IMG/VR virus record: IMGVR_UViG_3300010157_000087
Span: 1 to 52,045 of that record
Source: a virus
Reading direction: 5' to 3' (one strand)
Length of the DNA: 52,045 bases
Each line of letters begins with the position of its first letter. The first letter of the stretch is position 1. This document shows positions 846-52,045 of the stretch, in pieces. A program made the translations under genes and the position numbers. The notes below the pieces were generated by a model. It had not been told where the DNA came from and did no database searches. It saw only the letters and a list, made by a program, of their open reading frames with translations.

Positions 846-1282
846 AGGTTGTCCTTTTGACGAAGATCATAATACTTGTTATACATCAGATGCCATTTAA
901 GTGCGTCAGAACTTTGAAATTTCAACAGAGCCTGCCCATTGCAATAAAAAAAAGTAGTTGGTTCAATTGGTTTACTGTCAGGAATAAATTGACACAAGCG
1001 ATGTAGAACACTTACATTAACAGGATATCTGGCCAGATATATTTGTTTTAGTTCTATGTATTTGTCTTTGACAATTTTGCCATCTTCTACCAGTGTGTCT
1101 GTATTAGGATTTTTCCCAGAAACTTTTATTTTAAGATCAAAGGGAAAATCTACCAAAGCAGTTACTGTCAAATCAGAATTTTTGATTTCTGTGTCAAATA
1201 TCAAAGTATCATTGGAATAACATTCCAAAGACATATAGCCATTGCATTCCCCACATTTAAATACTAACTTTAATTCAGTCAT
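839..1282 (-). CDS. Unknown small protein, probably beta-rich
   Basis: A 147-residue protein starting at ATG 1282, 8 nt after the stop of the B12-type radical SAM gene and overlapping the start of the next radical SAM gene. I do not recognise a named family. The first two thirds alternate short hydrophobic and polar strands and contain VSGKNPNTDTLV and GKIVKDKYIELKQI, which suggests a beta-sandwich. Cysteines near the N-terminus (CGEC) could bind metal. The C-terminal part contains several aromatic residues (FFYCNGQALLKF, WHLMYNKYYDL). Its place between two radical SAM genes suggests a partner or substrate-binding role, but that is inference. The coding sequence is visibly AT-rich compared with gene 46. 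Confidence 0.7.
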   Translation of the reverse strand: MTELKLVFKCGECNGYMSLECYSNDTLIFDTEIKNSDLTVTALVDFPFDLKIKVSGKNPNTDTLVEDGKIVKDKYIELKQIYLARYPVNVSVLHRLCQFIPDSKPIEPTTFFYCNGQALLKFQSSDALKWHLMYNKYYDLRQKDNLC

Positions 1283-1290
1283 GGATGGTA

Positions 1291-2715: not shown

Positions 2716-2720
2716 ATTGG

Positions 2721-2726
2721 TATTTA
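2721..2726 (-). promoter_or_regulatory. TAAATA-core late promoter-like motif before the B12-type radical SAM gene
   Basis: Reading the minus strand, AATAAATACCAATATGA places the TAAATA core five bases before the ATG at 2715. It is almost the same as the signal before gp25 on the plus strand (ATAAATACCAGTATGA). The T4 late consensus is TATAAATA. If it is a promoter, the transcript would be nearly leaderless. Confidence 0.4.
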
Positions 2727-2734
2727 TTGGCCGA

Positions 2735-6121: not shown

Positions 6122-6124
6122 TGA

Positions 6125-34934: not shown

Positions 34935-36074
34935 ATGTCATATACAATTACACTAACTGATGGCGCAATCTATGCTGTAGTAGCAGATGGTACCGTTAAC
35001 ACTAGTTCCAGCATGACCCTGGTGGGCAAAAACTGGGCAGGTTATGGACAATTTCTAGGCGATAACTTTATTCGACTCTTGGAGAACGGCGCCAATACCA
35101 CTGCACCAGGCGCACCGTTGACTGGTCAACTTTGGTGGAACAAGACTGCAGGTACCATGCAGGTGTACAATGGCACAGGATTCAAAACTCTTGGTGGTGC
35201 TACTTCTGCCTCTTCTGCTCCGAGCAACAATGTCACAGGTGATTTATGGTATGATACTGTAAATCAACAGTTGAATGTTTGGACAGGTGCTGCCTGGATC
35301 GTGGTAGGACCTGCATTCACTCCAGGTACAGGCACAACAGGTGCCATCGTGGCCACAATTGTGGACAACACAGCAACATCACACAGTGTGATTGAATTAT
35401 TCTCTAACAATACCATTGTGGGCATTGTGAGCAAGGATCAAACTTTTACTCCTGGCACTGCGGTCACCGGCGGATGGGGTGTACAAGCAGTGAATCCAGG
35501 TATCACCATGGCCACCGGCGTTGCTAACAATGCTGTATGGGGTAATGTAGTTACATCGGGCTCGTTCACTGTCAATACTGGTGGTGCCGCAACTGCTATT
35601 ATTAATGGTGCAGGCAACGCAATTGGTAACATTGGCTCAGCGGGCAGTTACTTTAACCGAATCTTTGCTCAAGCAACCACAGCACTTTATGCTGACGTTG
35701 CCGAACGCTTTGCCGCAGATGATGTGTATACACCGGGCACAGTGGTTGAACTGGGCGGCTCAGCAGAAATTACCAAGGTCAAGTCAGACGCCAGCAGTGC
35801 GGTTTTTGGTGTGATTTCTACCAGACCTGCATTTACCATGAACGGTGGTGCTGGCGAAGACGATACTCACCCTCCGGTGGCCATGACAGGTCGTGTGCCT
35901 GTTCGGGTTACAGGCGTGGTACGCAAGGGCGACAGATTGATTTCAGCAGGCGACGGCATTGCCAGAGCGGCTGGCCCCCAAGAAGCCACTGCATTTAATG
36001 TGATTGGTCGTGCCTTGGTAAATAAAACAGACGCAGGACTTGGCATAGTGGAAGCCATTGTCACAATCAAATAA
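34935..36074 (+). CDS. Tail fibre-like protein with C-terminal intramolecular chaperone (peptidase G2-like)
   Basis: The protein has 379 residues and a GGAG ribosome site. Residues 1-120 contain two copies of a G-Q/D-L-W-W/Y unit (APLTGQLWWNKTAGTMQVYNG; VTGDLWYDTVNQQLNVWTG) that is common in phage fibre and collar proteins. A Gly/Thr-rich middle follows. From about residue 252 the sequence ALYADVAERFAADDVYTPGTVV, GVISTRPAFTMN and GRVPVRVTGVVRKGDRL matches the intramolecular chaperone domain that trimerises fibres and then cleaves itself off. The candidate cleavage site would be just before this domain. It is probably a host-contact or adaptor fibre. Confidence 0.85.
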   Translation: MSYTITLTDGAIYAVVADGTVNTSSSMTLVGKNWAGYGQFLGDNFIRLLENGANTTAPGAPLTGQLWWNKTAGTMQVYNGTGFKTLGGATSASSAPSNNVTGDLWYDTVNQQLNVWTGAAWIVVGPAFTPGTGTTGAIVATIVDNTATSHSVIELFSNNTIVGIVSKDQTFTPGTAVTGGWGVQAVNPGITMATGVANNAVWGNVVTSGSFTVNTGGAATAIINGAGNAIGNIGSAGSYFNRIFAQATTALYADVAERFAADDVYTPGTVVELGGSAEITKVKSDASSAVFGVISTRPAFTMNGGAGEDDTHPPVAMTGRVPVRVTGVVRKGDRLISAGDGIARAAGPQEATAFNVIGRALVNKTDAGLGIVEAIVTIK

Positions 36075-37137: not shown

Positions 37138-37446
37138 ATGAATACTGACGCATTAATTGCTCATGCACGAGCACGTTTTGATCATGTGGCCGCTCGCCGT
37201 GTGCTAAAAGAAAAGTACGAAGCCCGAATGTTGTTTGCCCATGGCGGCGGCATGTGGCGAGCAGGCCCTGAACTACAATGTGTCCTGTTGAGTTGTGCGC
37301 AAGACAAAGACGTTGTGCTGTTGGACTTGTATGAAACTCCTGTGAGAGTAAACGTTCCTGAACTGTTTGCTCGATCACACAGCCATTGGCAAGAACAAAT
37401 GAATGCATGGCTTATAGAATATGAAGAACAGAGTCGCAAACGATGA
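37138..37446 (+). CDS. Unknown 102-residue protein
   Basis: The first gene after the terminator. The N-terminus is helical and charged (LIAHARARFDHVAARRVLKEKYEARM), followed by FAHGGGMWRAGPEL and a strand (VVLLDLYETPVRVNVPEL), and a Trp-rich amphipathic end (HWQEQMNAWLIEYEEQ). I do not recognise a named family. A small assembly chaperone for the fibres is one possibility suggested by position, size and charge, but there is no direct evidence. It overlaps the next gene by ATGA. Confidence 0.7.
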   Translation: MNTDALIAHARARFDHVAARRVLKEKYEARMLFAHGGGMWRAGPELQCVLLSCAQDKDVVLLDLYETPVRVNVPELFARSHSHWQEQMNAWLIEYEEQSRKR

Positions 37447-38252
37447 CCACGGGCGCATTGATATTTGCGTTTGACAATGAATCGACTGACTACATTGCTA
37501 TGGCTGGATGGAGTGCTCGAAGAATTCATAGGCACCTCAACATTCCGGTGGCCATCATCACGGACGCAGATCCAACAGATCCAAGACTTGTTGGTGCAGA
37601 TCAAGTCATTAATACAACGCCTGCATCCGGCGGAACACGTTGGTTTGAGGATTATCAAGCCACTGTGTCTTGGTACAACGCAGGTAGAACTGATTCATAT
37701 CGACTGTCGCCTTGGGATCAAACCCTAGTACTGGATGCTGACTATGTGGTATGCGGTAATGAATTACAAACAGTAATTGATAGCCCACAAGATTTTATGT
37801 GTCATAGACTGGCCTGGGACATGACCAGCATGAATGACTTTGATGGACTCAACTATTTTGGCCATAATCGCATGCCCATGTGGTGGGCCACTGTGATGAT
37901 GTTCCGTAAGAGCAACACAGCACAATACATTTTTGATTCGATGAACATGATCAAAAACAACTGGCGTCACTACAAAGATCTCTATCACATCACAGGTACC
38001 AACTATCGCAATGACTATGCACTCAGTATCGCCCTGGGTATTGTGAGTGGCCATACCATGCAAGTAGACAACATACCATTTAGATTGGCCACGGTCATGC
38101 CCGAGCATACGCTCACTCAACTAGATGAAGACTTTTTCCAAATTGAATATACAGGAGACGACAAACGTCCCAAAAAGATAGCCTGGGCAGGCACAAGTTT
38201 TCATGCCATGGGCAAAAAGCACCTGGGAGACATCATTGCCAATTCTCGCTGA
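37443..38252 (+). CDS. GT-A type glycosyltransferase-like protein
   Basis: This 269-residue protein starts in an ATGA overlap. Its layout fits nucleotide-sugar transferases of the GT-A fold: an N-terminal strand (GALIFAFDNESTDY), a helix (AGWSARRIHRHL), IPVAIITDAD, and a DxD-like LDADYVV motif (D98, D100) that would hold the metal and nucleotide diphosphate. Later segments WWATVMMFRKS and NDYALSIALG fit the acceptor half. The next gene is a diverged paralogue with the same start and an E-A-D in place of D-A-D. Acceptor and sugar are unknown. Confidence 0.65.
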   Translation: MTTGALIFAFDNESTDYIAMAGWSARRIHRHLNIPVAIITDADPTDPRLVGADQVINTTPASGGTRWFEDYQATVSWYNAGRTDSYRLSPWDQTLVLDADYVVCGNELQTVIDSPQDFMCHRLAWDMTSMNDFDGLNYFGHNRMPMWWATVMMFRKSNTAQYIFDSMNMIKNNWRHYKDLYHITGTNYRNDYALSIALGIVSGHTMQVDNIPFRLATVMPEHTLTQLDEDFFQIEYTGDDKRPKKIAWAGTSFHAMGKKHLGDIIANSR

Positions 38253-38970
38253 GCGCGGCTATCTCATACCAGCCGTCGATACTGACACAACGGACTATGT
38301 GGCTTGTGCTGAACAACTGGCTGACAGCATACGCCGGTGGCACCCTGCGGCCAACATAACCATACTCACCAGAGACCAGTTGCCCAATGGCGACCAAGGC
38401 GGGTTTGCAAATGACTGGCAGTGCTTTGCGGCCAGTCCTTATAGACAAACAATCAAACTAGAAGCAGACATGGTTATAGCCAGTCCTGTTGATCACTGGT
38501 GGACCATGCTTGAACACAGAGATCTTGTGATATCTACTGGTGCTAGAGACTTTTATGATCAACCTGCTGAAAGTAGATTCTATAGAAAAGTGTTTGATGC
38601 CAATCACTTGCCTGATGTTTACAATGCTATCACATACTGGCGTGTGAGTCAAACAGCACAAGAGTTCTTTCGACTGGTACGTGATATATTTGAAAACTGG
38701 ATCAAGTATCGAACCTTGTTAAAATTTCCTGATGAAGAGCCCACAACAGATCTGGTGTATGCAATGGCTGCGCAGATCATGGGTCCTGAACTGGTCACCA
38801 TGCCATTTGTGAGTTATCCCCGAATTGTGCATATGAAACGACACATGATCTCAACTCACTCACACAATTGGACACAAGAATTGGTATGGGAATCCAATCC
38901 GCTGAGGTTTAATACTGTGGCACAGTGGGGGGCAGTACACTATCATCAAAAGGACTGGCGACATGAATGA
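38236..38970 (+). CDS. GT-A type glycosyltransferase-like protein, paralogue of the preceding gene
   Basis: I chose the TTG at 38236 because GGGAG lies just upstream and because its N-terminus then aligns with the preceding paralogue (GYLIPAVDTDTTDY against GALIFAFDNESTDY). An ATG at 38203 would add 11 residues inside the previous gene and has no ribosome site. From the TTG it has 244 residues. KLEADMVI (E76, D78) takes the DxD place. ITYWRVSQTAQEFF and EPTTDLVYAMAAQIMG parallel the paralogue. A role in sugar transfer is inferred from fold pattern only. Confidence 0.62.
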   Translation: MPILAERGYLIPAVDTDTTDYVACAEQLADSIRRWHPAANITILTRDQLPNGDQGGFANDWQCFAASPYRQTIKLEADMVIASPVDHWWTMLEHRDLVISTGARDFYDQPAESRFYRKVFDANHLPDVYNAITYWRVSQTAQEFFRLVRDIFENWIKYRTLLKFPDEEPTTDLVYAMAAQIMGPELVTMPFVSYPRIVHMKRHMISTHSHNWTQELVWESNPLRFNTVAQWGAVHYHQKDWRHE

Positions 38971-39298: not shown

Positions 39299-39992
39299 AA
39301 GCATGTTGGTCAATGGTTGTAGTTTCAGTAGAGGACCAGGATCCTGGCCTTATCATCTGGGTTATGAAATTTCAAATTTAGCCCAGGCAGGAGCCGGCAA
39401 CACTTACATACACGAAACTACTATTGCTGAACTTGCAAGGCGATCATATGATGCAGTTACCATTATGTGGACCGCTCCTCAACGTCAAGACATGAGAGTC
39501 AGTGATATTGATCAATTTGCCGGTAGCAAGTATACCAGTGCATATCAGCATTTACAAAATGATTGGCTAGAAAAAATTGTTTGGCCCAAAAACGATCAAG
39601 ACTATGTTGAAAAAAATTGGGTTTTTGGTTGCGGATATATCAATGGCGAGCAGGCTTTGAAAAAAACTCGCGTGTTTGAATCAGTGTACCGATACCAAGC
39701 AACCTTAGAATTTGAGCAGGGTTTTCTAATCAAGATGATATCTTTACAGAACACCCTCAAACAAATGAACATACCATATCTGTTTACCTTTTATCATCCT
39801 TACTTTGATGGATTGAAAGAATATGATCTTTTTAAACTTCTAGATCTAGAATCAATATATAACGATACAAACATAACAGATATCATGCGTGACAACAACT
39901 GGTATGATACAGATGGAATGCATCCTGGTACACAAGCCCACCAAGCCTGGGCAGAAATTTTAAAGAATATATGGCAACAAAAATTGACGTAG
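39291..39992 (+). CDS. SGNH/GDSL hydrolase-like protein
   Basis: The protein has 233 residues from ATG 39291, chosen over the far upstream 39204 because the SGNH domain begins at once and the upstream part overlaps another gene. Block I is VNGCSFSRG (S11 or S13 is the likely nucleophile), block II is AQAGAGN (G36, N37), and the C-terminal DTDGMHPGTQAHQAW supplies the Asp-x-x-His pair (near 206-211). This is the clearest SGNH protein in the window. Such enzymes act as esterases or O-acetyl transferases/hydrolases on glycans. It sits between glycosyltransferase-like genes, which fits glycan modification. Confidence 0.72.
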   Translation: MNKSMLVNGCSFSRGPGSWPYHLGYEISNLAQAGAGNTYIHETTIAELARRSYDAVTIMWTAPQRQDMRVSDIDQFAGSKYTSAYQHLQNDWLEKIVWPKNDQDYVEKNWVFGCGYINGEQALKKTRVFESVYRYQATLEFEQGFLIKMISLQNTLKQMNIPYLFTFYHPYFDGLKEYDLFKLLDLESIYNDTNITDIMRDNNWYDTDGMHPGTQAHQAWAEILKNIWQQKLT

Positions 39993-40900
39993 CAGATTTA
40001 GACTGCATTTACCTATCGTATGACGAACCGCAACGAGAAGAATTTTGGGTCCGGATCAAGAACATGGTGCCTTGGGCTTGTAGGGTCGATGGTGTACTGG
40101 GAAGCGATGCGGCACATAAAGCCGCGGCCCTGGCTTCTGAGTCTGAGCGATTTATACTCATTGATGGAGACAATATCCCTGACCCGGCTTTTTTTAATCA
40201 AACACTTGATTTTCCCACTGGTGATTATGAGCAGGCTGTGTTCCGCTGGCGAGCACGTAATCACATCAACGGATTGATGTACGGCAACGGTGGGCTGAGT
40301 TCATGGACCAAAACACACGTGATGAACATGCGCACCCATGAAAATACAGATGGCGCAACAGAAACACAAATAGAGTTTTGTTTTGATCCGCTATATTGGG
40401 CCATGCATAACTGTTACTCAGTTACCTATCCCAATGGTTCAGCATACCACGCCTGGCGTGCCGGATTCCGTGAAGGTGTCAAGATGTGTTTGAATCGTGG
40501 AGCCAAGCCCACAGTGTCAGAGTTCAAGGACCGTGTGCATCATCGTAACCTAGATCATCTAACCATATGGCATAATGTGGGCGGCGACGTTGATTATGGT
40601 TACTGGTCAATTGCTGGCGCACGTCAAGGAACTTATATGACAATGCTCACAAACTGGGATTATCTACAGGTACAAAACTTTGCGGCCTTGGCCGAACTTT
40701 TCAATACTGTAAAAGATGATCAACCTGAAATTATTGCCAATCGACTGGCAGATGAACTGACCACACAACTGGACCTGCCCATGCACATGCTCACGGCTGA
40801 AGCCAGTCGTTTTTTCAAGCATCATTATCGTAGCAATTGGCACAATCGAGGCATAATGGCCAGAGAGATGGATGTGATCAGATTTCAAGAAGGATGGTAA
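39971..40900 (+). CDS. Glycosyltransferase-like protein (GT-A, DGD motif)
   Basis: This 309-residue protein overlaps the previous gene by 22 nt. The N-terminal half has DCIYLSYDEPQREEFW, VDGVLGSDAAHKAAALASE and FILIDGDNIPDPAFF; the DGD (D65, D67) is the likely metal-binding motif. LMYGNGGLSSW and YHAWRAGFREGVKM follow. The pattern is that of a small GT-A transferase family seen in marine phages, as far as I can recall; the donor sugar is unknown. The C-terminal 80 residues are helical. An AAGGATGG at its 3' end serves the tiny next frame. Confidence 0.65.
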   Translation: MATKIDVADLDCIYLSYDEPQREEFWVRIKNMVPWACRVDGVLGSDAAHKAAALASESERFILIDGDNIPDPAFFNQTLDFPTGDYEQAVFRWRARNHINGLMYGNGGLSSWTKTHVMNMRTHENTDGATETQIEFCFDPLYWAMHNCYSVTYPNGSAYHAWRAGFREGVKMCLNRGAKPTVSEFKDRVHHRNLDHLTIWHNVGGDVDYGYWSIAGARQGTYMTMLTNWDYLQVQNFAALAELFNTVKDDQPEIIANRLADELTTQLDLPMHMLTAEASRFFKHHYRSNWHNRGIMAREMDVIRFQEGW

Positions 40901-41048: not shown

Positions 41049-42026
41049 ATGATTATTATGCCAAACATTGATCAACATATTTGGAATCTAGAATTCCTAA
41101 CAGTTGATATCATATACGAATTTCAAAAAAATGGCAAAGTCGTAATTAACTTAAACAACGAAGGTCCTGACGCCAATGAGTTAGGACTATACCCTATTCT
41201 AGATTATATCACTAAAAAATTTAATATTGACAAGAAGTTAATCAGCATACAAACACGCAATCTCTTAGAGAACCATGCGGACTATCAGATAATAAAACGC
41301 AACCCTTTATATGTTACTGAGGTCCAGGAGTTTATCAAACATCACGACTATACAAAAAAGAACTTTTATCAAATAAAACATTTTGGATTGTTTATTGGTA
41401 GATCAAATTGGCAACGATTTTGGATCTCATCAGAAATGTTTGGGCGATATCGAGACAAAACATTACAAACATTTTTATATGATCCTATAAACGATTTCCA
41501 TAAATCTCATTTGGGATTCGATCAATTATACACTGAAACTAGAGCACAATGTAATCTATCATTCATGTCACAATTGTTGTCACAATCGCCTGTCAGACTT
41601 GATTTTGTAGATAAATTTCCTATTGTAACTCCAGCACATTTTGAGATCAGCAAACACTATCATAAATTTTTCTCAGAGATAGTCTGTGAAACATATTCAG
41701 CAGGGCAAAGTTTTTATCCAACTGAAAAAACATGGCGCCCTATTGCTTGTCAAACACCTTTCATGATACAGGGTCCTGTAAACTTTCTACAAAATCTTCA
41801 TAAACTTGGATTCAAAACATTTCACCAATGGTGGGACGAAAGTTATGATGAAGATGGAAGCCTATTAGGAATCAGAACCATTTTAAAAAATGTTGAGCGT
41901 CTAAGCAAGATGTCTGCGGCAGAGTTGGAGTCTATGTATAACAATATGAAACCAGTACTCGAGCATAATCATAATGTTTTGTCAGAACTTACTGATAAAT
42001 CTTTTGAGATATTCTATGACCAATAA
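41049..42026 (+). CDS. Glycosyltransferase-like protein (GT-B type C-terminal half)
   Basis: The protein has 325 residues, with ATGs at 41049 and 41058 both possible; no ribosome site is clear. The C-terminal half contains FSEIVCETYSAGQSFYPTEKTWRPIACQTPFMIQ-type sequence: an acidic-aromatic strand, the E-K-T-W-R-P-I loop, and a following GPVNFLQNLHKLGFKTF and WWDESYD. This arrangement recurs in the protein at 43379 (LRSEKIYKPIAMGHPFIAV, HHAGFQTFGHLIDESFD) and fits the donor-site half of GT-B enzymes of the exostosin or fucosyltransferase kind. The gene is strongly AT-rich compared with its left neighbour, suggesting separate acquisition. Confidence 0.6.
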   Translation: MIIMPNIDQHIWNLEFLTVDIIYEFQKNGKVVINLNNEGPDANELGLYPILDYITKKFNIDKKLISIQTRNLLENHADYQIIKRNPLYVTEVQEFIKHHDYTKKNFYQIKHFGLFIGRSNWQRFWISSEMFGRYRDKTLQTFLYDPINDFHKSHLGFDQLYTETRAQCNLSFMSQLLSQSPVRLDFVDKFPIVTPAHFEISKHYHKFFSEIVCETYSAGQSFYPTEKTWRPIACQTPFMIQGPVNFLQNLHKLGFKTFHQWWDESYDEDGSLLGIRTILKNVERLSKMSAAELESMYNNMKPVLEHNHNVLSELTDKSFEIFYDQ

Positions 42027-43389
42027 AAGTGTATTCATGGGCTCAGCAGAACTCATGAAAGACCAACTGGGCAATGCATTATGCTTGGCCAAATGGAAAC
42101 AAGTGAGTTTGCACTTGCCCACTGGACACAATAACAGTTGTTATCATCCACCCTTGCATGAGATTCCCGTAGAGAATCTTGCAACCAACCCTGGTAGTTT
42201 ACACAACACGCCATACAAAAAAGAACAACGAAAAATCATGTTGCGGCAAGAGCGGCCTTCAGAATGCTCCTACTGTTGGAACATGGAAGATCAGGGCAAG
42301 TTAAGTGATAGACACTATCGTTCAGGCGAGCCCTGGGCCGCAGTAGATTTTGAAAAGATTGCTAATTCAACAGGGGATGAAGACATAGTTCCTAGTTATG
42401 TAGAAGTCAATTTCAATCATGCCTGTAACTTGTCATGCAGTTACTGTAGCCCGCAGTTTAGTTCAACTTGGCAAGCGGAAGTTGATAGGCTGGGAGGATT
42501 TCCTACCTCAACTATGCATAATGATCCTGCGCATTTTACGGGTAACAAACGACCCATCCCAGTACGTGAACACAATCCTTATGTGGAAGCATTTTGGGCA
42601 TGGTGGCCTGAGTTATACCCTGCACTAGAACACTTTCGCATGACTGGTGGTGAACCGCTGATGGACCGGAACACTTACCGGGTATTTAATTATGTGTTAG
42701 ACAATCCCTCTAAAAAATTACATCTTAATGTTACTAGTAACTTTTCAGTAGAACCCGAATTGTTCAAACGCTATCTTGACTATGTAAAACGCATCTGTGA
42801 TGGACGCATCGAACACTTCATGCAGTATGTGAGCGTGGATTCAGGCATACCTGCACAGGCTGAGTACATACGTCATGGTCTTGATTACATGCGTATGTTC
42901 CACAATGTGGATCGCTATTTGACTCAAGTTCCTAGTTACAATAGTCTTACATTTATCATAACCATGAACAATCTTTCTGTCACAGGATTGAAATCATTGC
43001 TGGGTTGGATCCTGTTCCTAAGAAGAACACACAGCAGAACCTATCAACGAGTATGGTTTGATACTCCTGTGCTACGCACACCTGCCTGGCAGAGTCTGCA
43101 AATATTGCCGGAAAGTTACGCCGCCAAACTAGAAGAAGTCAAGCAGTTCATGCTGGAACACATGGAAGATCCAAGATATCCGCATCAAGGGTTTAAGGAC
43201 TTTGAAGTGGCACGACTGGATCGAGACATTGCCTGGATGCGTAGTGCCCAAGACCAAGATCATTCACAGGCACGTGCAGATTTTTACAGATTCTTTGCAG
43301 AACACGATCGTCGACGCGGTACTGATTTCTTGGCTACATTTCCTGAGATGCAATCATGGTGGCGAGAATGCGAATATCATGCTAGGTAA
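42016..43389 (+). CDS. Radical SAM protein with N-terminal twitch-like module
   Basis: The protein has 457 residues from ATG 42016, overlapping the previous gene by 11 nt. An earlier ATG at 41974 adds a segment with no homologous look. The N-terminal module has CLAKWKQVSLHLPTG, SCYHPP and CSYCWNMEDQG; one cluster cysteine is replaced by a C-Y-H arrangement. The radical SAM motif is CNLSCSYC (C137, C141, C144), the GGEPL loop follows MTGGEPLMDRN, and a substrate-side VSVDSGIPAQAEYIRHGL segment is shared with the paralogue at 44485. The C-terminus ends with FYRFFAEHDRRRGTDFLATFPEM, the tail motif common to this group. Substrate unknown. Confidence 0.87.
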   Translation: MTNKSVFMGSAELMKDQLGNALCLAKWKQVSLHLPTGHNNSCYHPPLHEIPVENLATNPGSLHNTPYKKEQRKIMLRQERPSECSYCWNMEDQGKLSDRHYRSGEPWAAVDFEKIANSTGDEDIVPSYVEVNFNHACNLSCSYCSPQFSSTWQAEVDRLGGFPTSTMHNDPAHFTGNKRPIPVREHNPYVEAFWAWWPELYPALEHFRMTGGEPLMDRNTYRVFNYVLDNPSKKLHLNVTSNFSVEPELFKRYLDYVKRICDGRIEHFMQYVSVDSGIPAQAEYIRHGLDYMRMFHNVDRYLTQVPSYNSLTFIITMNNLSVTGLKSLLGWILFLRRTHSRTYQRVWFDTPVLRTPAWQSLQILPESYAAKLEEVKQFMLEHMEDPRYPHQGFKDFEVARLDRDIAWMRSAQDQDHSQARADFYRFFAEHDRRRGTDFLATFPEMQSWWRECEYHAR

Positions 43390-44488
43390 TCGCAGACTAG
43401 TATGTGATACTTCATGCGAAATCTATCCCGAAATTAAACATCTGGTAGATGAAACATTTTGGGATTTTGAGCAGTATGTATCTCAGTCCAATGACATTGT
43501 GATACTTGCCAGGCAAACTGTAAATCGTCACTCAGATCGAGTAAAACAACTGGCCGAAACTTGTTTGCCTGTGTTGGCCAATCCTACCGAAGGTTCTATA
43601 GTTCTCAAACTACAATGTCAACGATTAGGATTACTGAATTATATCCGAGATCAAAAAATGCTACTGGTTGGTTGCGGAGAAATGGAGCCAGATCTTAATT
43701 GTTTAGTTTATGATCAGTATGCTTACAAAGCCACATGTTACATCAGTAATAACGAACAATGTGCTCGTGTGGATGAAATTTATAAAAAACTTCACAAACC
43801 CTACCTGTTCTTGTTTTTGAATGGACGCACAAGGCCGCACAGAAAATACATGATAGAAAAGATGCGTGACGCTGGTCTACTAGAACATGCACTATGGACT
43901 AATCTAGACACAACTCCAGTATATCATCACACTTATGTAACAGACTTGTGTGAAAGACCCAGTGCAATACAATTGCTACCCTTAGAATACGAAGTAGAAC
44001 AATTTCACGCAGGGCAGAAAGATCAGTATCAATACGCTTTTGTCAAGGATGAACTGTTTGATAACAAATGGGGAGACATATATATTCGATCCGAACCCTA
44101 TATTGATACCTATTTTAGCCTGGTATCAGAAACTGTGTTTGATTATCCTTACAGCCTGCGTAGTGAAAAAATATACAAACCAATTGCCATGGGGCATCCG
44201 TTCATAGCAGTGGCCAATTGCGGGTTTTATCAAGACTTACATCATGCAGGATTTCAAACCTTTGGTCATCTAATAGATGAATCATTTGATAGGATAGACA
44301 ACAATCAAGATCGCCTGGATAGAATTGCACAAGTGGTGCAAGACTTATGTAGGAGTGATCTGGCCGAATTTCTGGTTGCAAGTCAGGCAGTAACTAAGTA
44401 TAATCAACAACACTTGGCAGCAGAAGGCGTTCGAGTTTTTCGAGAATTTCCTGAGCGATTTGCCAATTTTATTCAAAGCAATTTGTGA
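43379..44488 (+). CDS. Glycosyltransferase-like protein (GT-B type)
   Basis: The protein has 369 residues from ATG 43379, which overlaps the previous gene by 11 nt; an upstream ATG at 43202 lies deep in that gene and is rejected. The middle contains YLFLFLNGRTRPHRKYMIEKM, a motif seen in capsule and LPS transferases, and the C-terminal half has the SLRSEKIYKPIAMGHPFIAVAN loop with GFYQDLHHAGFQTF, like the protein at 41049. It is probably a second sugar transferase of the same broad fold. It sits between two radical SAM genes and overlaps the next by GTGA. Confidence 0.62.
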   Translation: MLGNRRLVCDTSCEIYPEIKHLVDETFWDFEQYVSQSNDIVILARQTVNRHSDRVKQLAETCLPVLANPTEGSIVLKLQCQRLGLLNYIRDQKMLLVGCGEMEPDLNCLVYDQYAYKATCYISNNEQCARVDEIYKKLHKPYLFLFLNGRTRPHRKYMIEKMRDAGLLEHALWTNLDTTPVYHHTYVTDLCERPSAIQLLPLEYEVEQFHAGQKDQYQYAFVKDELFDNKWGDIYIRSEPYIDTYFSLVSETVFDYPYSLRSEKIYKPIAMGHPFIAVANCGFYQDLHHAGFQTFGHLIDESFDRIDNNQDRLDRIAQVVQDLCRSDLAEFLVASQAVTKYNQQHLAAEGVRVFREFPERFANFIQSNL

Positions 44489-45816
44489 ACGATTTAGATT
44501 TTAAACACACAATATTAGACACATTATCTCAAAGTTTTTGTGCAGCCAAATGGTACAACGCTACCATCTGGTTAGGCTCTGGCATGACCACGTCATGCCA
44601 TCATCCGCCGGCCCATTTGATTGACATTGATAAAGTCTCTAACAACCCTAGGCTGTTGCACAATACTGACCAAAAGAAAGAAGACCGCAGAAAGATGTTG
44701 GCCGGCGAGCGTCCTGCAGGTTGCGAGTATTGCTGGAAGATTGAAGACATGGGCAAGGATGCTATATCAGACCGTGTGTACAAATCAAAGATATATCCTA
44801 TAGAGGCACTAGATGAGGCTTATAATACTCCTGCCGACGATGACGTCAATCTCCGTACATTGGAAATTGCTTTTGATCGTACTTGTCAATTTGCTTGCTC
44901 TTACTGCAACCCTGCTTTTAGCACAACTTGGGCTAACGATATCAAACGTAACGGACCCTACCACAATCTTGTTAGTGACGGGCGCAATCACTTTACCCAC
45001 ACCCATGATAGTGCTCAGTTGTTTAAGATCACGGAGGCTAATCCCTACATTGATGCATTTTTTGCATGGTGGGAAACGGATCTACATCATACCCTCCAGG
45101 AACTCAGAATTACCGGAGGCGAGCCCCTTATGTCTGCCCACACTTGGCGACTTATTGACTGGTTTCGAGACAACCGGGGACGTAGTAGCACACGCCTTGC
45201 TATCAATAGTAACCTGGGAACCGACGTTGACATTGACCGATTGCTTGCCAGCACACGAGGAATGGCTATCGACCTATACACAAGCAATGAATCAATCTCT
45301 ACACAAGCAGAGTACATCCGCGATGGGCTGGTCTGGGACGATTGGGCCAACAACGTAGAACGATTGTTAGATTCAGGGCAGTTCCGTGGCATACATGTGA
45401 TGTCGACCATTAATGCACTATGTTTAAGCACACTAGATCAATTGCTGGAATGCATAATGAATTGGAAACTGGAATATGGTCGAGATGCTATCAGTTTCAC
45501 ATTAAATATCCTGCGCTTTCCGTCATTTCAATCACCGCTAGTATTGCCCGATGCCCAGCGCCGAGTATATCAACAACGCTTGGAGACATGGCTTGAGCAC
45601 TGGGCTGACAGTGAATTCATTCATGAACACGAGGTCAATCACACACAACGCCTAATAGACTATTTGGATGTGGTAAAGACTCCACACTCGGAAGCATTTG
45701 ATCGCCCTAAACTATTGAATGATTTCCGACAGTTCTATACACAGTACGATCAGCGTCGTGGCAAAGACTTTGTCCAAGCATTTCCCGAATTGGCAGATTG
45801 GTACAACACAATCTAA
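44485..45816 (+). CDS. Radical SAM protein with N-terminal twitch-like module
   Basis: This 443-residue protein starts at GTG 44485 in a GTGA overlap. The N-terminal module (CAAKWYNATIWLGSG, SCHHPPAH, CEYCWKIEDMG) closely follows the paralogue at 42016. The radical SAM motif CQFACSYC gives C134, C138 and C141; RITGGEPLMSAHTW is the GGE loop. ISTQAEYIRDGL is shared with the paralogue. The C-terminus LNDFRQFYTQYDQRRGKDF and FPELADWYN carries the group tail. Part of that tail is copied, almost base for base, at 47210-47250. Substrate unknown. Confidence 0.88.
   Translation: MNDLDFKHTILDTLSQSFCAAKWYNATIWLGSGMTTSCHHPPAHLIDIDKVSNNPRLLHNTDQKKEDRRKMLAGERPAGCEYCWKIEDMGKDAISDRVYKSKIYPIEALDEAYNTPADDDVNLRTLEIAFDRTCQFACSYCNPAFSTTWANDIKRNGPYHNLVSDGRNHFTHTHDSAQLFKITEANPYIDAFFAWWETDLHHTLQELRITGGEPLMSAHTWRLIDWFRDNRGRSSTRLAINSNLGTDVDIDRLLASTRGMAIDLYTSNESISTQAEYIRDGLVWDDWANNVERLLDSGQFRGIHVMSTINALCLSTLDQLLECIMNWKLEYGRDAISFTLNILRFPSFQSPLVLPDAQRRVYQQRLETWLEHWADSEFIHEHEVNHTQRLIDYLDVVKTPHSEAFDRPKLLNDFRQFYTQYDQRRGKDFVQAFPELADWYNTI
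45715..45755 (+). repeat. Copy 1 of a dispersed repeat (radical SAM C-terminal tail)
   Basis: The first 26 bases from TTGAATGATTTCC are identical to 47210-47235, and the next 15 differ at three bases. In this copy it encodes LNDFRQFYTQYDQR in the tail of the radical SAM protein. Confidence 0.85.
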
Positions 45817-45820
45817 TCCC

Positions 45821-46453
45821 ATGTTAAAAGCAACCATTATCTATTTGCCCGGGTCAGCAGGAAGCATGCTATACAAAACATTAACGTTGAGTGAAAAAAC
45901 AATCACAGGTACCAAGGGGCAGGATCTTGAAGAGTATAACAAAAAGTTAACTGCTCAGGAAAAATTTACCCGTTACATGACCTGGGATAGTACAGACTGG
46001 AAAACACAAGAAAGAAAAGATCTGTTGAGTTATGCAGATGGTCAAATTGATTTTTACCACTATGAAGATTGTGATCTATGGACCATAGACAGTTGGCATC
46101 CACAGGAGTTTTTCAATCAATATACACAAAAAACCTTGTGGGGAGAAAAGTTTTATGAAAATGTTATTTTGATACAAGTGAGTCTTGAGCACAAGGAATT
46201 TTTACTGGTGAATCAAACTGCCAAAGAGTATAGTCTTGATTTTGACCAAGAATATCAATGCCTTGACCTGCTAACTGGCATGTTTGGCAATATTTTATTG
46301 ACAATACCTTTTGACAGTTTTTTTGTCAAGAACCAATATCTAAATGAAATCGCTCGACTAGACACAGAATTGGATTTGGAATTAGATCTAGATCTAGTGG
46401 GAGATTTGTGGGACCTTTGGTTCAAAGAAAGTTCATTGATATGGAAAAAATAA
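45821..46453 (+). CDS. P-loop, possibly sulfotransferase-like protein
   Basis: The protein has 210 residues from ATG 45821, 4 nt after the radical SAM stop. An upstream in-frame ATG at 45719 is rejected as inside that gene. YLPGSAGSML (residues 8-17) directly after the first strand resembles the PAPS-binding loop of sulfotransferases, and the N-terminus parallels the WYPSGGFGHF protein at 5321. The middle is aromatic and acidic (ADGQIDFYHYEDCDLW). The C-terminus has a striking Leu-Asp run (LDLELDLDLVGDLWDLW). Assignment is tentative because only the loop is recognisable. Confidence 0.5.
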   Translation: MLKATIIYLPGSAGSMLYKTLTLSEKTITGTKGQDLEEYNKKLTAQEKFTRYMTWDSTDWKTQERKDLLSYADGQIDFYHYEDCDLWTIDSWHPQEFFNQYTQKTLWGEKFYENVILIQVSLEHKEFLLVNQTAKEYSLDFDQEYQCLDLLTGMFGNILLTIPFDSFFVKNQYLNEIARLDTELDLELDLDLVGDLWDLWFKESSLIWKK

Positions 46454-47151
46454 AAATACTTTGCCTGGGCAACAGTTCAACTGATACAGTTATTCGATCA
46501 GATCAGGTGGCTCAGCAGTATGCAACTGAATGCAACGGCCTGTTGACTGAACAAGATAACAACATTCAATCTGGATGCTATTATACAGATATCGGAACAG
46601 TCAGAGTAGATTATCTTAGATCAATATGCAAAAGTTTTGATTTGATTGTGTTGTTGGACCAAGATCCTGTGAGTTATGGTCATATAGATTCATTTTATCA
46701 GTCGATGACCACATGTTTATTTTTACAGCATCAACAGCAGGTAATAATTCAATCTCAAAAGCCCTGGTTCTACATAGTCACACATCTTGAACCAACGCAA
46801 CCCAACAGTTCAATAGTACGAGTCAGCAACAATCAAGAACTGTATCAACAGGTAATGATTGCTGATGTGTTCAAAAGAAATCTAGTCCTACAACTGAGCA
46901 AAATTTCCAGCAATACATTTGATGATTTTACAACGTATGTAAATAACATGGTGCAAAAATGCAGAAGTTTAGACTGTAGGTTTGTGATGTTCAGAGCAGA
47001 CCCCCACGAACCAGACCCTGAACTACACTATCATGTGACTAGATTTCTTGTGCAATTTCCTGAATTTGTTTTGTTGACTCCTGATGCGTTTGGAGTGGAT
47101 TCCAATTTAGAAAAAATAATTTTACGACACTGGACAAATCTCTATGAGTGA
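46441..47151 (+). CDS. Unknown protein, possibly SGNH-like
   Basis: The protein has 236 residues from ATG 46441, overlapping the previous gene by 13 nt. It opens with ILCLGNSSTDT, an N-terminal strand and Gly-Asn-Ser-Ser turn that resembles SGNH block I, and contains FDLIVLLDQDPVSYGHIDSF. No block II glycine-asparagine or terminal Asp-x-x-His pair is clear, so enzymatic activity is doubtful. By position it is the third member of a radical SAM, P-loop, SGNH-like series, echoing the block between genes 47 and 46. It is AT-rich. Confidence 0.55.
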   Translation: MEKIKILCLGNSSTDTVIRSDQVAQQYATECNGLLTEQDNNIQSGCYYTDIGTVRVDYLRSICKSFDLIVLLDQDPVSYGHIDSFYQSMTTCLFLQHQQQVIIQSQKPWFYIVTHLEPTQPNSSIVRVSNNQELYQQVMIADVFKRNLVLQLSKISSNTFDDFTTYVNNMVQKCRSLDCRFVMFRADPHEPDPELHYHVTRFLVQFPEFVLLTPDAFGVDSNLEKIILRHWTNLYE

Positions 47152-47311
47152 TTACAAATACAACAGCACATATCTAGTGCGACCTACAGAACTTACTGAG
47201 CGTGAGCGTTTGAATGATTTCCGACAGTTCTATACTCAGTATGATCAACGTAGATCAAAAGACGTTGGCTCAGCATGGTCCAAATTGAAAGAATGGTCCG
47301 ACATATTATGA
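47144..47311 (+). CDS. Small 55-residue protein carrying the radical SAM tail motif on its own
   Basis: ATG 47144 overlaps the previous stop and the frame ends in an ATGA overlap with the next radical SAM gene, so both ends look like coupled real gene ends. It begins MSDYKYNSTYLVRPTEL and then has RLNDFRQFYTQYDQRRSKD, almost identical to the C-terminus of the protein at 44485, followed by a different end (GSAWSKLKEWSDIL). It may be a free-standing docking or substrate-like peptide for the radical SAM proteins, or the remnant of a recombined copy. The sequence cannot decide. Confidence 0.55.
   Translation: MSDYKYNSTYLVRPTELTERERLNDFRQFYTQYDQRRSKDVGSAWSKLKEWSDIL
47210..47250 (+). repeat. Copy 2 of the dispersed repeat
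   Basis: Same 41-bp segment as 45715-45755 with three differences, here inside the 55-residue gene. The copies are in the same orientation 1.5 kb apart, enclosing the P-loop and SGNH-like genes. Confidence 0.85.
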
Positions 47312-48972
47312 AAACACTAGGCACAATAGACCTTGAGCATTTTTCAAAACAAGATTACGATACCGGCAAAAAATGGTTGCGTGATCAATTAAGAAGTTTA
47401 CGAAAAGACCCGTTTGAAACGGATGAAAGAATTGTGGTTGTTCATACTTGGGATTACTACGTAAAAGAACATGAACAAGCAGGGTTGATATTGAAGAATT
47501 TACAAGTGTTACTCAATGAAGAAGATATCTCCTGTTGTTTTGTTCAGTTACAAACCACCAATCCTGACATTGCACAAGAACTCACAGCAATACAAAAAAT
47601 AAATGTAGATTCTAATGCAATAGAATGTGAGATAATCCCCGGCCCATATCATCGGCAGCAGTTGAACCGTTATCCCTACAGTAGAGAGGAAGAATATCAA
47701 TATGGTTCAGCCAATCCAGTCAAAGTAAATCTCGCCAGTTTGTCGCCTGAACAACAGCATTTGTTGAGCCAAAGCAAAACTTTCTGCATGTACCCCTGGA
47801 TACATTTACACGCTTGGCCCAATGGTCAGGCATACCCCTGCTGTCACGCTGAAGGAAATCCACAGTTTGGATCCACTAGAACACAAACACTGGCAGAGAT
47901 TTGGAATGGTCAGCCTATGAAAAAACTACGTCAAGACATGCTGACAGAAACGCCCAATCGCTCATGCACACGCTGTTATGAACAAGAAGAGTCAGGGTTC
48001 TTTTCCGGCAGACAAAGTGCAAACAAGCATCATGGTCATCACGTTGATCGAATTGCACAAACCTTGCCCAGTGGGCAGTTTGACCAGTTTGCAATGACCT
48101 ATTGGGACATTCGTTTCTCAAACCTGTGCAATCTAAAGTGTCGCTCATGTGGGCATATCTTTTCAAGCCAGTGGTATCAAGATCAAGCCAAGTTGGCAGG
48201 TCCTGCATGGAAGGATAGTAACACAGTTCTCAACTACGCAGGACGCACAGAAACAGACATGTGGACACAACTGGAGCCACACCTGGACTATGTGGAGCAA
48301 ATATACTTTGCAGGTGGCGAACCCCTGTTGATGGAAGAACACTACAATATTCTTGAAGAACTTGTGCGGCGCAAACGCTTTGATGTCAGACTGATATACA
48401 ACACAAACTTCACACACACTGATCTTAAAGGACGCTCAGTATTTGAATACTGGCGACAGTTTGAATCAGTGGCAGTGGGTGCCAGTCTAGACGCCATGGG
48501 CACGCCTGCAGAATATATTAGAAAAGGCACACGTTGGTCGGATGTGGTAAAGAATCGTCATAGAATGATTGCCACATGTCCCAACGTAGACTTTTACATA
48601 AGTCCTACACTCAGTATCATGAATGCCTGGCACTTGCCTGATTTTCACAAGGAATGGGTAAGTGCTGGCCTAATTCGGGCGCAGGATTTGAATGTAAATA
48701 TCTTGCAGGATCCTGCATACTACAGAATAGACATTGCACCCGCCGAATACAAGCAAAGATTGGAAGCCAAGTACTTGAAGCATCTAGACTGGATGAGTGA
48801 TCGCGATCCGCTACAACGTGCTACACAGGGATTTCGAAGCGCCATTACCTTTATGAATGCCACAGACAACACACAGTTGATTGATAAATTCTGGCGTAAA
48901 ACACATGAATTAGATAGCATTAGAAATGAATCGTGGCACCATGCTGTGCCAGAATTAGAGGCATTGAAATGA
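47308..48972 (+). CDS. Radical SAM protein with N-terminal SPASM/twitch-like module
   Basis: The protein has 554 residues from ATG 47308 (ATGA overlap); the upstream 47275 ATG is rejected as inside the small gene. Residues 1-160 are an extension with RIVVVHTWDYYVKEHE. The auxiliary module is the clearest here: CMYPWIHLHAWPNG, YPCCHAEGN, TLAEIWNGQPMKKLRQDM and CTRCYEQEESG, that is, the Cys pattern and EIWN element of SPASM domains. The radical SAM motif CNLKCRSC is C274, C278 and C281, with AGGEPLLMEEHY later. The tail ELDSIRNESWHHAVPELEAL ends it. The auxiliary module precedes the barrel. Confidence 0.9.
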   Translation: MKTLGTIDLEHFSKQDYDTGKKWLRDQLRSLRKDPFETDERIVVVHTWDYYVKEHEQAGLILKNLQVLLNEEDISCCFVQLQTTNPDIAQELTAIQKINVDSNAIECEIIPGPYHRQQLNRYPYSREEEYQYGSANPVKVNLASLSPEQQHLLSQSKTFCMYPWIHLHAWPNGQAYPCCHAEGNPQFGSTRTQTLAEIWNGQPMKKLRQDMLTETPNRSCTRCYEQEESGFFSGRQSANKHHGHHVDRIAQTLPSGQFDQFAMTYWDIRFSNLCNLKCRSCGHIFSSQWYQDQAKLAGPAWKDSNTVLNYAGRTETDMWTQLEPHLDYVEQIYFAGGEPLLMEEHYNILEELVRRKRFDVRLIYNTNFTHTDLKGRSVFEYWRQFESVAVGASLDAMGTPAEYIRKGTRWSDVVKNRHRMIATCPNVDFYISPTLSIMNAWHLPDFHKEWVSAGLIRAQDLNVNILQDPAYYRIDIAPAEYKQRLEAKYLKHLDWMSDRDPLQRATQGFRSAITFMNATDNTQLIDKFWRKTHELDSIRNESWHHAVPELEALK

Positions 48973-50228
48973 CAGACCTTGACAAGATAATATCACCAAA
49001 AGATTACAAGACATTTGCCGGTCCAGACTGGCCCAGTTATCAAGACATTCTGTCAGGAATAACTGTTGATGATGTGTCTATTCAGGCCGAAGTGACAGAG
49101 TTTGTGGAAATGATGACACAGACCTATCAAGAAACTGTGCAGGATGGGGCTTTATTAGCACAACGAAATCAACAGCGCCAGGGACAGATATTTTTTAATA
49201 AACAACTACAGGTCTCTCAACGTTGCAATGAACCTTGGGATACAATGAGCATCAATCACAACGGTGACATTTATATATGTAGTTGTTCAAGTTGGCTGCC
49301 AAAACTGGTAGGCAATCTACAACGCACACAGTCAGTATTTGACGCATTGAATTCAGAAATTGCACAGAAAATACGACAAGAAATACACGCCGGTAGATAT
49401 TTTTATTGTAACAATGAGATTTGTAGTTTTTTTCAAAAAATAGACCCCAGCACCTATCAATCCAGACCAGTCGACACCAAACCATTGCCATTTGTGGCCA
49501 ATGATCAGCAGTTGTCAATTGCACAAATACCCAGAAATCTAATTTTTGAATTTGATTATACTTGTAATTTTCAGTGTCCTAGTTGTAGGACGGAATTGAT
49601 AAATCACAACAAACATCATGTGATCAGACCTATCAACAATAACATTGTGAACTGTATCAAGCACCAGATAATTGACCAAATACAGGACCAACCGGTGGAA
49701 ATTCGCTGGTGCGGTGGCGAGCCTTTCATCAGTGAGGCATATCTTGAACTGTTGGAGTATATTATGCAGACTGGTAAATCAAATATTCAGCACATCATAC
49801 AAACCAATGGCAGTTATCTACAGAAAAAATCTAATCTAATTGAAAAACTATTGCCCACACTTGCAGAACTCCGAGTGAGTTTTGATGCAGCCACACCCGA
49901 AACCTACAGTAAAACAAGAGTAAATGGTCAGTGGGACGCACTGTTGGCCAACGTCAGTTGGATCCGAGAAACAATTGACACTGGGCATACCAGCACAGTG
50001 CTCTCTGCGGATTTTGTAGTGCAGGCCGACAACTACAAAGAAATACCCAAATTCATCGAACTCTGTAATAGTATAGGGATTGATAGAATAAACTTTCAAA
50101 AGATGTGGAATTGGGGAACTTGGCAACCAGACATATTTCAAAGTAAAAATATAAATCACAGCAAGCACCCTGATTATGCTGAACTAGTGGCAATACTTAA
50201 ACAGGCCAATATCCCATTGGGATTTTAA
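48969..50228 (+). CDS. Radical SAM protein, variant N-terminal cysteine module
   Basis: The protein has 419 residues from ATG 48969 (ATGA overlap with the previous gene). The N-terminal module differs from its neighbours: CNEPWDTMSINHNGDIYICSC followed by a long gap and CNNEIC, giving five or six cysteines. The radical SAM motif is CNFQCPSC (C199, C203, C206). RWCGGEPFISEAYLELLEYI and LRVSFDAATPETYSKTRVNG are close to classical SPASM maturases and viperin-like barrels. It lacks the group's C-terminal His-Asp-Arg tail and ends shortly after the barrel. It may act on a different substrate from its neighbours. Confidence 0.87.
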   Translation: MTDLDKIISPKDYKTFAGPDWPSYQDILSGITVDDVSIQAEVTEFVEMMTQTYQETVQDGALLAQRNQQRQGQIFFNKQLQVSQRCNEPWDTMSINHNGDIYICSCSSWLPKLVGNLQRTQSVFDALNSEIAQKIRQEIHAGRYFYCNNEICSFFQKIDPSTYQSRPVDTKPLPFVANDQQLSIAQIPRNLIFEFDYTCNFQCPSCRTELINHNKHHVIRPINNNIVNCIKHQIIDQIQDQPVEIRWCGGEPFISEAYLELLEYIMQTGKSNIQHIIQTNGSYLQKKSNLIEKLLPTLAELRVSFDAATPETYSKTRVNGQWDALLANVSWIRETIDTGHTSTVLSADFVVQADNYKEIPKFIELCNSIGIDRINFQKMWNWGTWQPDIFQSKNINHSKHPDYAELVAILKQANIPLGF

Positions 50229-50230
50229 TC

Positions 50231-51442
50231 ATGAACGCACCACATACAAAATTTTGCGTCCTACCGTGGATCAGTCTGGAAGCCAGTCCCATTGGCACTG
50301 TGCGTCCTTGCTGTTTGGCCGATGACGAGATAGTTGACAGCAATAGTGTTAAGTTTAACTTAAAGTCTGCCAATTTCCGAGACATTCAAAACAGTGAGTA
50401 CATGTATCAATTGCGGCAAGCATTCTTAGCCGGTCAACAGCCAGAGACTTGTAGAAAATGCTGGAATGAAGAAGACGCTGGGCGTACCTCAAAACGCATG
50501 CACACGCTAGACAGACTCAAGCACATGGGTATTAGTTCTGAATGGACACAAGAAGCCAAGCCACTCATGTTCTTGGATCTCAAACTGGGCAATATTTGCA
50601 ATTTGAAATGTCGTATATGTGGATCTTGGTCCAGCAGTAGTTTTGCTGTGGAAGAAATAGCCAATTCTTCAGAAGAACACAGTAAAACAAGTTTTGCCTA
50701 TCAGATGCTAAAAGCCGGACGCTGGCCCAGAGAGAATGAGAAATTCTGGACACAAATTGAGTCAGTGGTAGATGACATACGCTATATTGAATTCACTGGT
50801 GGCGAACCATTCATGATTGCGGAACATTTTGAAATGTTGCAGGGCATAGTGGATCGTGGTATTGCACCGCAAGTGGAAATACACTACAATACCAACGGTA
50901 CTCAATGGCCAGTGGCCGCAGAACACATCTGGAAGCATTTCAAAACAGTAGAAATAGCATTTTCAATTGACGACTTGTGCGAAAGATTTGAATACCAACG
51001 CACCGGTGCAAAATGGACAGACGTACAAGAAAATATACAAAGATTCCGTGATTTAAGAAAACGCTACCCCAATATTCAACTGCAATGTTGCTCCACAGTA
51101 AACATATTCAATGTACTATATATTGATCAATTGGCCAACTGGATCGGTGTGCAAGGATTTGACTTTGTGTACTGGAATATCATGCATGATGCACCATATT
51201 TTTCCGTCGCTGCCTTGCCCGACACAGCAAAACAAGTGATTGCTGATCATTTGAATACTGCATTCATGCCAGGCATGTACAAGAAAGATTTTTCAGGCAT
51301 TGTGGATTTTATGATGCAAGGTGAATCAACCGACGGAGTTGAAACATGCAGACAAATGCAAAAACTAGATCACCGGCGTGACCAAAATTTAGCAGATGTT
51401 GCTCCTGAACTAGCCCAATTATTAAATTATGTCAAAACCTGA
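50231..51442 (+). CDS. Radical SAM protein with N-terminal twitch-like module
   Basis: This 403-residue protein starts 2 nt after the previous stop. The module CVLPWISLEASPIG, RPCCLADDE, FRDIQNSEYMYQLRQAFL and CRKCWNEEDAG is at residues of about 9-80. The radical SAM motif CNLKCRIC is C123, C127 and C130, with EFTGGEPFMIAEHFEML and EIHYNTNGTQWP afterwards. FSIDDLCERFEYQRTGAKW is nearly the same as FSIDDVGARFELERGGQW in the minus-strand protein at 6125, making these two close paralogues. The tail QKLDHRRDQNLADVAPELA carries the shared motif. Substrate unknown. Confidence 0.89.
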   Translation: MNAPHTKFCVLPWISLEASPIGTVRPCCLADDEIVDSNSVKFNLKSANFRDIQNSEYMYQLRQAFLAGQQPETCRKCWNEEDAGRTSKRMHTLDRLKHMGISSEWTQEAKPLMFLDLKLGNICNLKCRICGSWSSSSFAVEEIANSSEEHSKTSFAYQMLKAGRWPRENEKFWTQIESVVDDIRYIEFTGGEPFMIAEHFEMLQGIVDRGIAPQVEIHYNTNGTQWPVAAEHIWKHFKTVEIAFSIDDLCERFEYQRTGAKWTDVQENIQRFRDLRKRYPNIQLQCCSTVNIFNVLYIDQLANWIGVQGFDFVYWNIMHDAPYFSVAALPDTAKQVIADHLNTAFMPGMYKKDFSGIVDFMMQGESTDGVETCRQMQKLDHRRDQNLADVAPELAQLLNYVKT

Positions 51443-52045
51443 CACCATGTGCCTAGCACCCTGGGTGCATACATATCTAAGCCCGCAAACCGAGCGCAGA
51501 ATGTGCTGTGCCAGCCGTGAACCTGCACAGAACTTTGAGCAGTACATAGATACTGCATCGGGCACAGGACGTTATATACCCGTAACTCTTGAACAGCACT
51601 GGAATTCAGAACATATGAAATCCGTGCGTCGTAGAATGATGGCTGGAGAAACCTTACCAGAATGTGAAGTATGCAATGACAGACTCCTTAACACTAGCGT
51701 TTACCGCACCTACTTCGATCATTTATTTCAGCACAAACTGCCAGAAGTTTACAGCACAACACTGGAGGATGGTTTCACGACTATGGCTCCTGTATCGTGG
51801 GATTACAGGTTCAGCAACCTGTGTAACTTTAAATGCCGTACTTGCGGAGACATGCTCTCCAGCGCCTGGGAAAGTGAACAAAAAACTCACAACATGGTCA
51901 ACTGGCATGATCCTAAAAACAATTGGATGCGAAACGACATACGCGGAGCAATACAATCATTCCAGCAAGACCAGGTTGAAGCCGAATTCAGTCATGCTGT
52001 GGAACAACACCTGGTAGAAGAAGTATACTGGGTAGGCGGCGAACC
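51429..52045 (+). CDS. Radical SAM protein with N-terminal twitch-like module (partial, cut by right edge)
   Basis: The frame opens at ATG 51429, overlapping the previous gene by 14 nt, and is open to the right edge (about 205 codons). A second ATG six codons on (51447) is also possible. The N-terminal module has CLAPWVHTYLSPQ, RMCCASREP, HWNSEHMKSVRRRMMAG and CEVCND. The radical SAM motif CNFKCRTC is C132, C136 and C139, and the last residues seen are GGEP of the GGE loop. The barrel end and tail lie outside the window. It is the sixth radical SAM gene of the plus-strand series. Confidence 0.85.
   Translation, partial: MSKPDTMCLAPWVHTYLSPQTERRMCCASREPAQNFEQYIDTASGTGRYIPVTLEQHWNSEHMKSVRRRMMAGETLPECEVCNDRLLNTSVYRTYFDHLFQHKLPEVYSTTLEDGFTTMAPVSWDYRFSNLCNFKCRTCGDMLSSAWESEQKTHNMVNWHDPKNNWMRNDIRGAIQSFQQDQVEAEFSHAVEQHLVEEVYWVGGE

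Follow-up and report, generated by a model that had tools for sequence, protein, structure and literature searches.

A fixed array of five twitch-type radical SAM genes in T4-like jumbo phages, a candidate core for glycan modification in the tail-fibre region

Why would a phage carry nine radical SAM (rSAM) genes within 52 kb, six of them in near-tandem, and do they act together? The question is raised by a stretch of viral DNA of 52,045 nt (IMG/VR record IMGVR_UViG_3300010157_000087, positions 1 to 52,045), the whole of which is referred to here as the window, and for which an initial annotation had proposed a single dedicated modification pathway. The source is a T4-like jumbo phage, and the window is only a 52-kb fragment of its genome: gp46, gp47, gp55 and gp5 were recognised by PHROG matches, gp6 is homologous (around 33% identity) to that of the jumbo phages Phosso, Atu_ph07 and PBECO4, and we also assign gp25 by our own reading. 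The genes for gp46 (2735-4498) and gp47 (7579-8595), normally adjacent in T4-like phages, are separated at 4548-7582 by three genes, one SGNH-like, one sulfotransferase-like and one encoding an rSAM, and an ORF of 4176 aa (21595-34125) immediately follows gp6. Related contigs of 150-350 kb hold 7-21 rSAM genes each. A-type Fe-S carriers (PF01521) were found in 12 of 24 large related contigs, including all six of those of at least 250 kb, and the jumbo phage contigs G001, G002, G003, G724 and G733 have two such genes apiece. Record numbers give the impression that the relatives, which are uncultured, come mostly from lake samples.

All nine annotated CxxxCxxC ORFs are present, each with the motif, and at the places described; four of the reported starts (2715, 42016, 47308 and 48969), however, are ATGs that lie in frame inside slightly longer ORFs, whose listed starts are 2751, 41974, 47275 and 48933, respectively. 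Profile searches confirmed every one of the nine proteins as an rSAM and sorted them into three types: seven carry an N-terminal twitch domain, one is of the B12-binding type and one is SPASM-like (Table 1). PF04055 matches eight ORFs; for the ninth (51429, truncated where the window ends) Pfam gives only a sub-threshold SPASM match. The NCBIfam model NF033640 (N_Twi_rSAM, twitch domain-containing radical SAM protein; curated cut-off 170 bits) returned E-values of 1e-46 to 1e-122 for six of the nine. The ORF at 6125 and those named A, B, C and D score above this cut-off; the truncated E, with 158.5 bits over the first half of the model, and the divergent X, with 93.5 bits, fall below it, and the 845 and 2751 proteins belong to other families. 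The 845 protein has relatives next to Bdellovibrionota arrays (1e-67), and the 2751 protein has one in the bacterial locus L183 (5e-68). No RiPP maturase cut-off was reached by any ORF, the closest being the 2751 protein with 78.5 bits against 282 for TIGR03975, its nearest model, and the remaining ORFs scoring lower. A viperin-type antiviral rSAM was likewise rejected, given NF038283 scores of at most 44.7 bits against a cut-off of 180. The C protein is extended at its N terminus by about 160 aa (47275-47760), a feature found in only some relatives, and a similar-looking extension is seen in the 6125-7582 gene.

Table 1. Radical SAM genes of the window and the genes surrounding the array.
Feature	Position	Strand	Support and occurrence
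rSAM, SPASM-like, cut by contig end; accessory	3..845	-	PF04055 38 bits
rSAM, B12-binding type; accessory	1291..2751	-	PF04055 39 bits; B12-binding 22.8 bits (sub-cut-off)
rSAM, N-terminal twitch, between gp46 and gp47; accessory	6125..7582	-	NF033640 298 bits
Virion/tail-fibre-like protein, upstream of module	34935..36074	+	PHROG virion structural match, residues 2-75
GT37443, glycosyltransferase-like by motif, upstream of array	37443..38252	+	In 27 D-selected loci
GT38203, glycosyltransferase-like by motif, upstream of array	38203..38970	+	In 34 D-selected loci
g39971, GT-A-like, DGD motif; core gene	39971..40900	+	Associated with rSAM arrays of phages and of Bdellovibrionota
EXT protein, putative glycosyltransferase; variable	41049..42026	+	Paralogue family
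rSAM A	42016..43389 (ORF open from 41974)	+	NF033640 315 bits
EXT protein of the A-B interval, putative glycosyltransferase	43202..44488	+	In most relatives
rSAM B	44485..45816	+	NF033640 296 bits
Two variable B-C inserts (45719, sulfotransferase-like by eye; 46408)	45719..47151	+	Window and three relatives only
rSAM C	47308..48972 (ORF open from 47275)	+	NF033640 410 bits
rSAM X, divergent twitch rSAM; accessory	48969..50228 (ORF from 48933)	+	NF033640 93.5 bits
rSAM D	50231..51442	+	NF033640 344 bits
rSAM E, cut by contig end	51429..52045	+	NF033640 158.5 bits

An IMG/VR search with D returned 55 loci, 34 of which fully cover the region, and in all 34 the genes A-B-C-D-E occur in identical order and on the same strand, with g39971 upstream of A. 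The same array was observed in 79 further loci selected with C (some on contigs already counted), wherever the contig was uncut, and E is whole in relatives (e.g. L001:12088-13377). Contigs selected with gp6, and therefore chosen blind to rSAM content, hold all five genes where their length suffices (G008, G009, G010 and G014). A distant set of loci at about 30% identity (L044-L054) displays four rSAMs beside g39971, GT38203, GT37443 and fibre genes, in inverted orientation. The conserved co-occurrence expected of a common pathway is thus complete for A-E, and contiguity with phage genes is seen in more than 100 contigs; an assembly chimera is ruled out, the array adjoining the same phage genes in many of them. 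The near-tandem group of six consists of these five conserved genes and a sixth (X, 48933) that is confined to the window and three related array loci (L009-L011). Since only A-E are fixed, a single pathway of nine enzymes is rejected, and the genes at 845, 2751, 7582 and 48933 are best described as variable accessories.

To assess the relationship among the five enzymes, a tree of 183 sequences was examined, in which A, B, C, D and E form one clade each with SH-aLRT values of 99-100 (A 100, B 99, C 99, E 100). The three cysteines of the SAM cluster and the four of the N-terminal auxiliary cluster are invariant in 29 of 29 sequences per clade, and the GGEP motif is invariant in an alignment of 16 rows that includes E from relatives. 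Each clade shows one extra invariant cysteine (C275 in A, C313 in B, C435 in C, C287 in D and C260 in E, the last in 28 of 28), and these occupy different alignment positions, which suggests, at the sequence level, that the active sites differ. Comparisons with close relatives gave dN/dS values of 0.04-0.16, rough figures with several pairs near dS saturation, and by this measure A-E are evidently under purifying selection. Together, the clade-wise cysteines and the low dN/dS uphold the earlier view of maintained, distinct copies. Recent tandem duplication in place was rejected, since A-E are separate lineages of old standing, each of which also has bacterial relatives. One could still regard the genes as a selfish build-up of rSAM paralogues lacking a common pathway, as the differences in accessory copies between phages and the single occurrence of subfamilies in bacteria would allow; for A-E, whose order and content are fixed in all covered loci, whose dN/dS is low and which occur together in a bacterial array, this is strongly disfavoured and highly improbable, although it is possible for 845, 2751, 7582 and 48933.

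The partial TIM barrel anticipated for these proteins was seen in the structure model of D (pLDDT 90, with strand-helix repeats), the sole one of the nine modelled, which matches rSAM folds at low TM. Foldseek returned SkfB, viperin, BlsE, anSME and CteB as its best PDB matches, all at low TM, and uncultured phage proteins and KVP40 Q6WHP4 as its best viral matches.

The surroundings of the array are also ordered. In relatives, the fibre gene g34935 is followed by g36087, g37138, GT37443, GT38203, g38963, g39971 and variable genes; then come A, EXT, B, C, D and E, with variable genes between B and C, C and D, and D and E; and after E a protein of 345 aa, a carbamoyltransferase and two EXT genes (opposite strand). 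The carbamoyltransferase lies beside the array in 37 loci. The protein of about 345 aa (e.g. L001:13370-14407) is conserved in 38 loci and has no Pfam match. Among 63 variable inserts, Pfam identified DegT, epimerase/GDP-mannose dehydratase, hexapeptide transferase, Stf0 sulfotransferase, UDP-glucose dehydrogenase, RmlD, GT25 and additional rSAM proteins, and GFO/IDH/MocA proteins also occur among the array neighbours. In the window itself, the glycosyltransferase, sulfotransferase and SGNH labels of the initial annotation could not be confirmed: they rest on motif reading, as Pfam gave no match over threshold for the neighbours, GT37443, GT38203, g39971 and EXT included. The model of g39971 (pLDDT 68) weakly matched GT-A-like folds, including that of the PBCV-1 capsid glycosyltransferase (E 0.006). 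The region therefore presents the features of a host-recognition cluster, namely a fibre gene, putative glycosyltransferases and sugar-enzyme inserts, with a weak identity for the core glycosyltransferases. A modification context is retained through the nucleotide-sugar, carbamoyl-, amino- and sulfo-transfer genes of the relatives, without the nine-gene pathway.

Considering that five distinct twitch-rSAMs in fixed order are accompanied by sugar and transfer inserts, and that the link between rSAMs and glycosyltransferases recurs in unrelated phages and in bacteria, we propose, with a probability of roughly 0.5, that a phage pathway has the array as its fixed core and either makes or changes an unusual glycan or adds a glyco-modification to a protein, in the tail-fibre region of this T4-like jumbo lineage. 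Each rSAM would use SAM and its 4Fe-4S cluster to generate a 5'-deoxyadenosyl radical, which would abstract a hydrogen from a single site on the substrate, a sugar or glycoprotein, while the N-terminal auxiliary cluster may hold the substrate or accept an electron. The outcome could be a redox-neutral epimerisation or a two-electron oxidation, as in BtrN-type enzymes; glycosyltransferases would then put together or attach the product, and accessory enzymes would alter its decorations.

The fold neighbours count against a glycan product, since the solved structures nearest in fold include peptide maturases and viperin no less than sugar enzymes. For this reason we take seriously a less likely explanation, in which the rSAMs act on virion proteins, either tail fibres or adhesins, whose residues they would crosslink, epimerise or methylate, with the glycosyltransferases as a layer of their own. 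SkfB, CteB, SuiB, anSME and EpeE are among the fold and profile neighbours, the B12-rSAM (2751) is closest to a RiPP C-methyltransferase model, and the array adjoins fibre genes; on the other hand, the inserts are sugar enzymes, and no small precursor ORF recurs within the array among ORFs of at least 90 aa.

As for the location of a glycan product, the fibres or virion of the phage itself are the most likely, and the host surface the next. An altered host envelope glycan could serve superinfection exclusion, acting against competing phages with the pathway being no part of the virion, a role proposed for the glycosyltransferases of pelagimyophage host-recognition clusters (PMC7029224). We find this quite unlikely given the invariance of A-E across diverged phages, unlike a fast-changing trait, though the variable inserts could still serve it.

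Glycosyltransferases and carbamoyltransferases also serve DNA modification in phages, and one bacterial glycosyltransferase near an array gave a weak TAGT match. That the module alters phage bases against restriction is nevertheless very unlikely: it lies by fibre genes and not by replication genes, the same families occur in bacterial chromosomes, and Tet_JBP was found in 0 of 15 large relatives, in a search that had no working positive control.

The array family extends to bacteria, where it is linked to Bdellovibrionota: in the two phyla sampled, NF033640 occurs in 94 of the 291 genomes from Bdellovibrionota, compared with 2 of 398 from Pseudomonadota. The g39971 family occurs in 18 of the 291, all within the 94 (hypergeometric 4e-10, kinship ignored), and at nine places it lies 0.8-3.1 kb from an rSAM. 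At L191, a locus with obgE (Pfam GTP1_OBG) as a flanking gene, all five enzymes A-E have orthologues within a single array, the weakest call being D with 304 bits; a second locus, L194, has A, B, B and E. Elsewhere E and other subfamilies stand singly among housekeeping genes, so the five enzymes are separable, and a single product need not require them all; an obligate five-step set is not upheld in bacteria, where E stands alone in other genomes. The 139 bacterial array neighbours include 34 other rSAMs and 13 GT2 proteins. A lone E (L282, G190:C24) was noted by eye between a GlmU-like nucleotidyltransferase and glmS, both amino-sugar genes. L138, a contig filed under a Pacearchaeota MAG, carries clamp-loader-like and lysozyme-like genes, looks as if it came from a T4-like phage and is possibly mis-binned.

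Some bacterial loci bear on the modification of peptides. In a Bdellovibrio MAG (L137), a fibre-like ORF of 1424 aa (3-4277) directly precedes four twitch rSAMs, and pilin-like ORFs lie close to the L178 and L179 arrays, both of which would suit that explanation. Most of the other sampled bacterial arrays have no adjacent fibre gene, which speaks against it, and fibre modification as a bacterial rule, hinted at by L137, was rejected. Returning to a glycan product, we consider it an unlikely, speculative extension that the five-enzyme set, present in jumbo phages and also in at least one chromosome of Bdellovibrionota, makes a novel radical-modified sugar or glycoprotein coating adhesion fibres, a shared chemistry by which phages and predatory bacteria would grip Gram-negative prey.

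The rSAM genes of phages are usually single or scattered, whereas here five are invariant in more than 100 contigs. Such a set, often accompanied by Fe-S carrier genes, implies that the phage relies on a multi-enzyme radical pathway. NF033640, a concrete family lacking an assigned function, is here divided into five subfamilies and tied to glycosyltransferases in three independent settings, and related enzymes in the cultured phages KVP40, K566 and nt-1 make it experimentally accessible.

T4-like phages with many rSAMs were already known; the invariant A-E array, of which we found no earlier description, is new relative to the open-access literature searched. The annotated generalisation that phages carry none or one has exceptions in print, such as the marine T4-like genome TARA_ERS488813_N000010, which encodes 12 rSAMs along with Fe-S proteins (PMC5332604). 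That genome shares with the array phages its many rSAMs and a phage A-type Fe-S carrier, but in the passage concerned it is framed as Fe-S metabolism, without array, subfamilies or a glycan link (PMC5332604). NF033640 is a model name without function, whereas the array phages split the family into five fixed subfamilies and the divergent X. The BtrN and twitch-SPASM rSAM dehydrogenases of aminocyclitol pathways are alike in their twitch auxiliary domain and in their aminotransferase and carbamoyltransferase neighbours, and the C-terminal part of BtrN aligns weakly with the N-terminal domain of the array proteins (E 0.03); the auxiliary domain, however, lies at the opposite end of the chain, and the sugar chemistry of the array proteins is putative. 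Vibrio phage K566 has an rSAM-GT8-rSAM-rSAM-GT4 block and an rSAM-GT8 block, and in KVP40 the PF00534 glycosyltransferase.0274 lies two genes from the rSAM.0272; the two are independent repeats of the rSAM-glycosyltransferase link. Both phages (Schizotequatrovirus and relatives) are cultured and, like the source of the window, T4-like with twitch-type rSAMs beside glycosyltransferases, but their rSAMs (five in the stretch of K566 examined, three in KVP40) share about 24% identity with the array proteins and include no A-E orthologues. The closest parallel in setting is the host-recognition cluster of pelagimyophages and cyanomyophages, a T4-like region that likewise combines tail fibres with glycosyltransferases and rSAM cassettes, the last two lying within the cluster in pelagimyophages (PMC7029224). 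That cluster is hypervariable and its rSAM cassettes come and go (PMC7029224), whereas the array phages keep an invariant core of five rSAMs and vary the inserts.
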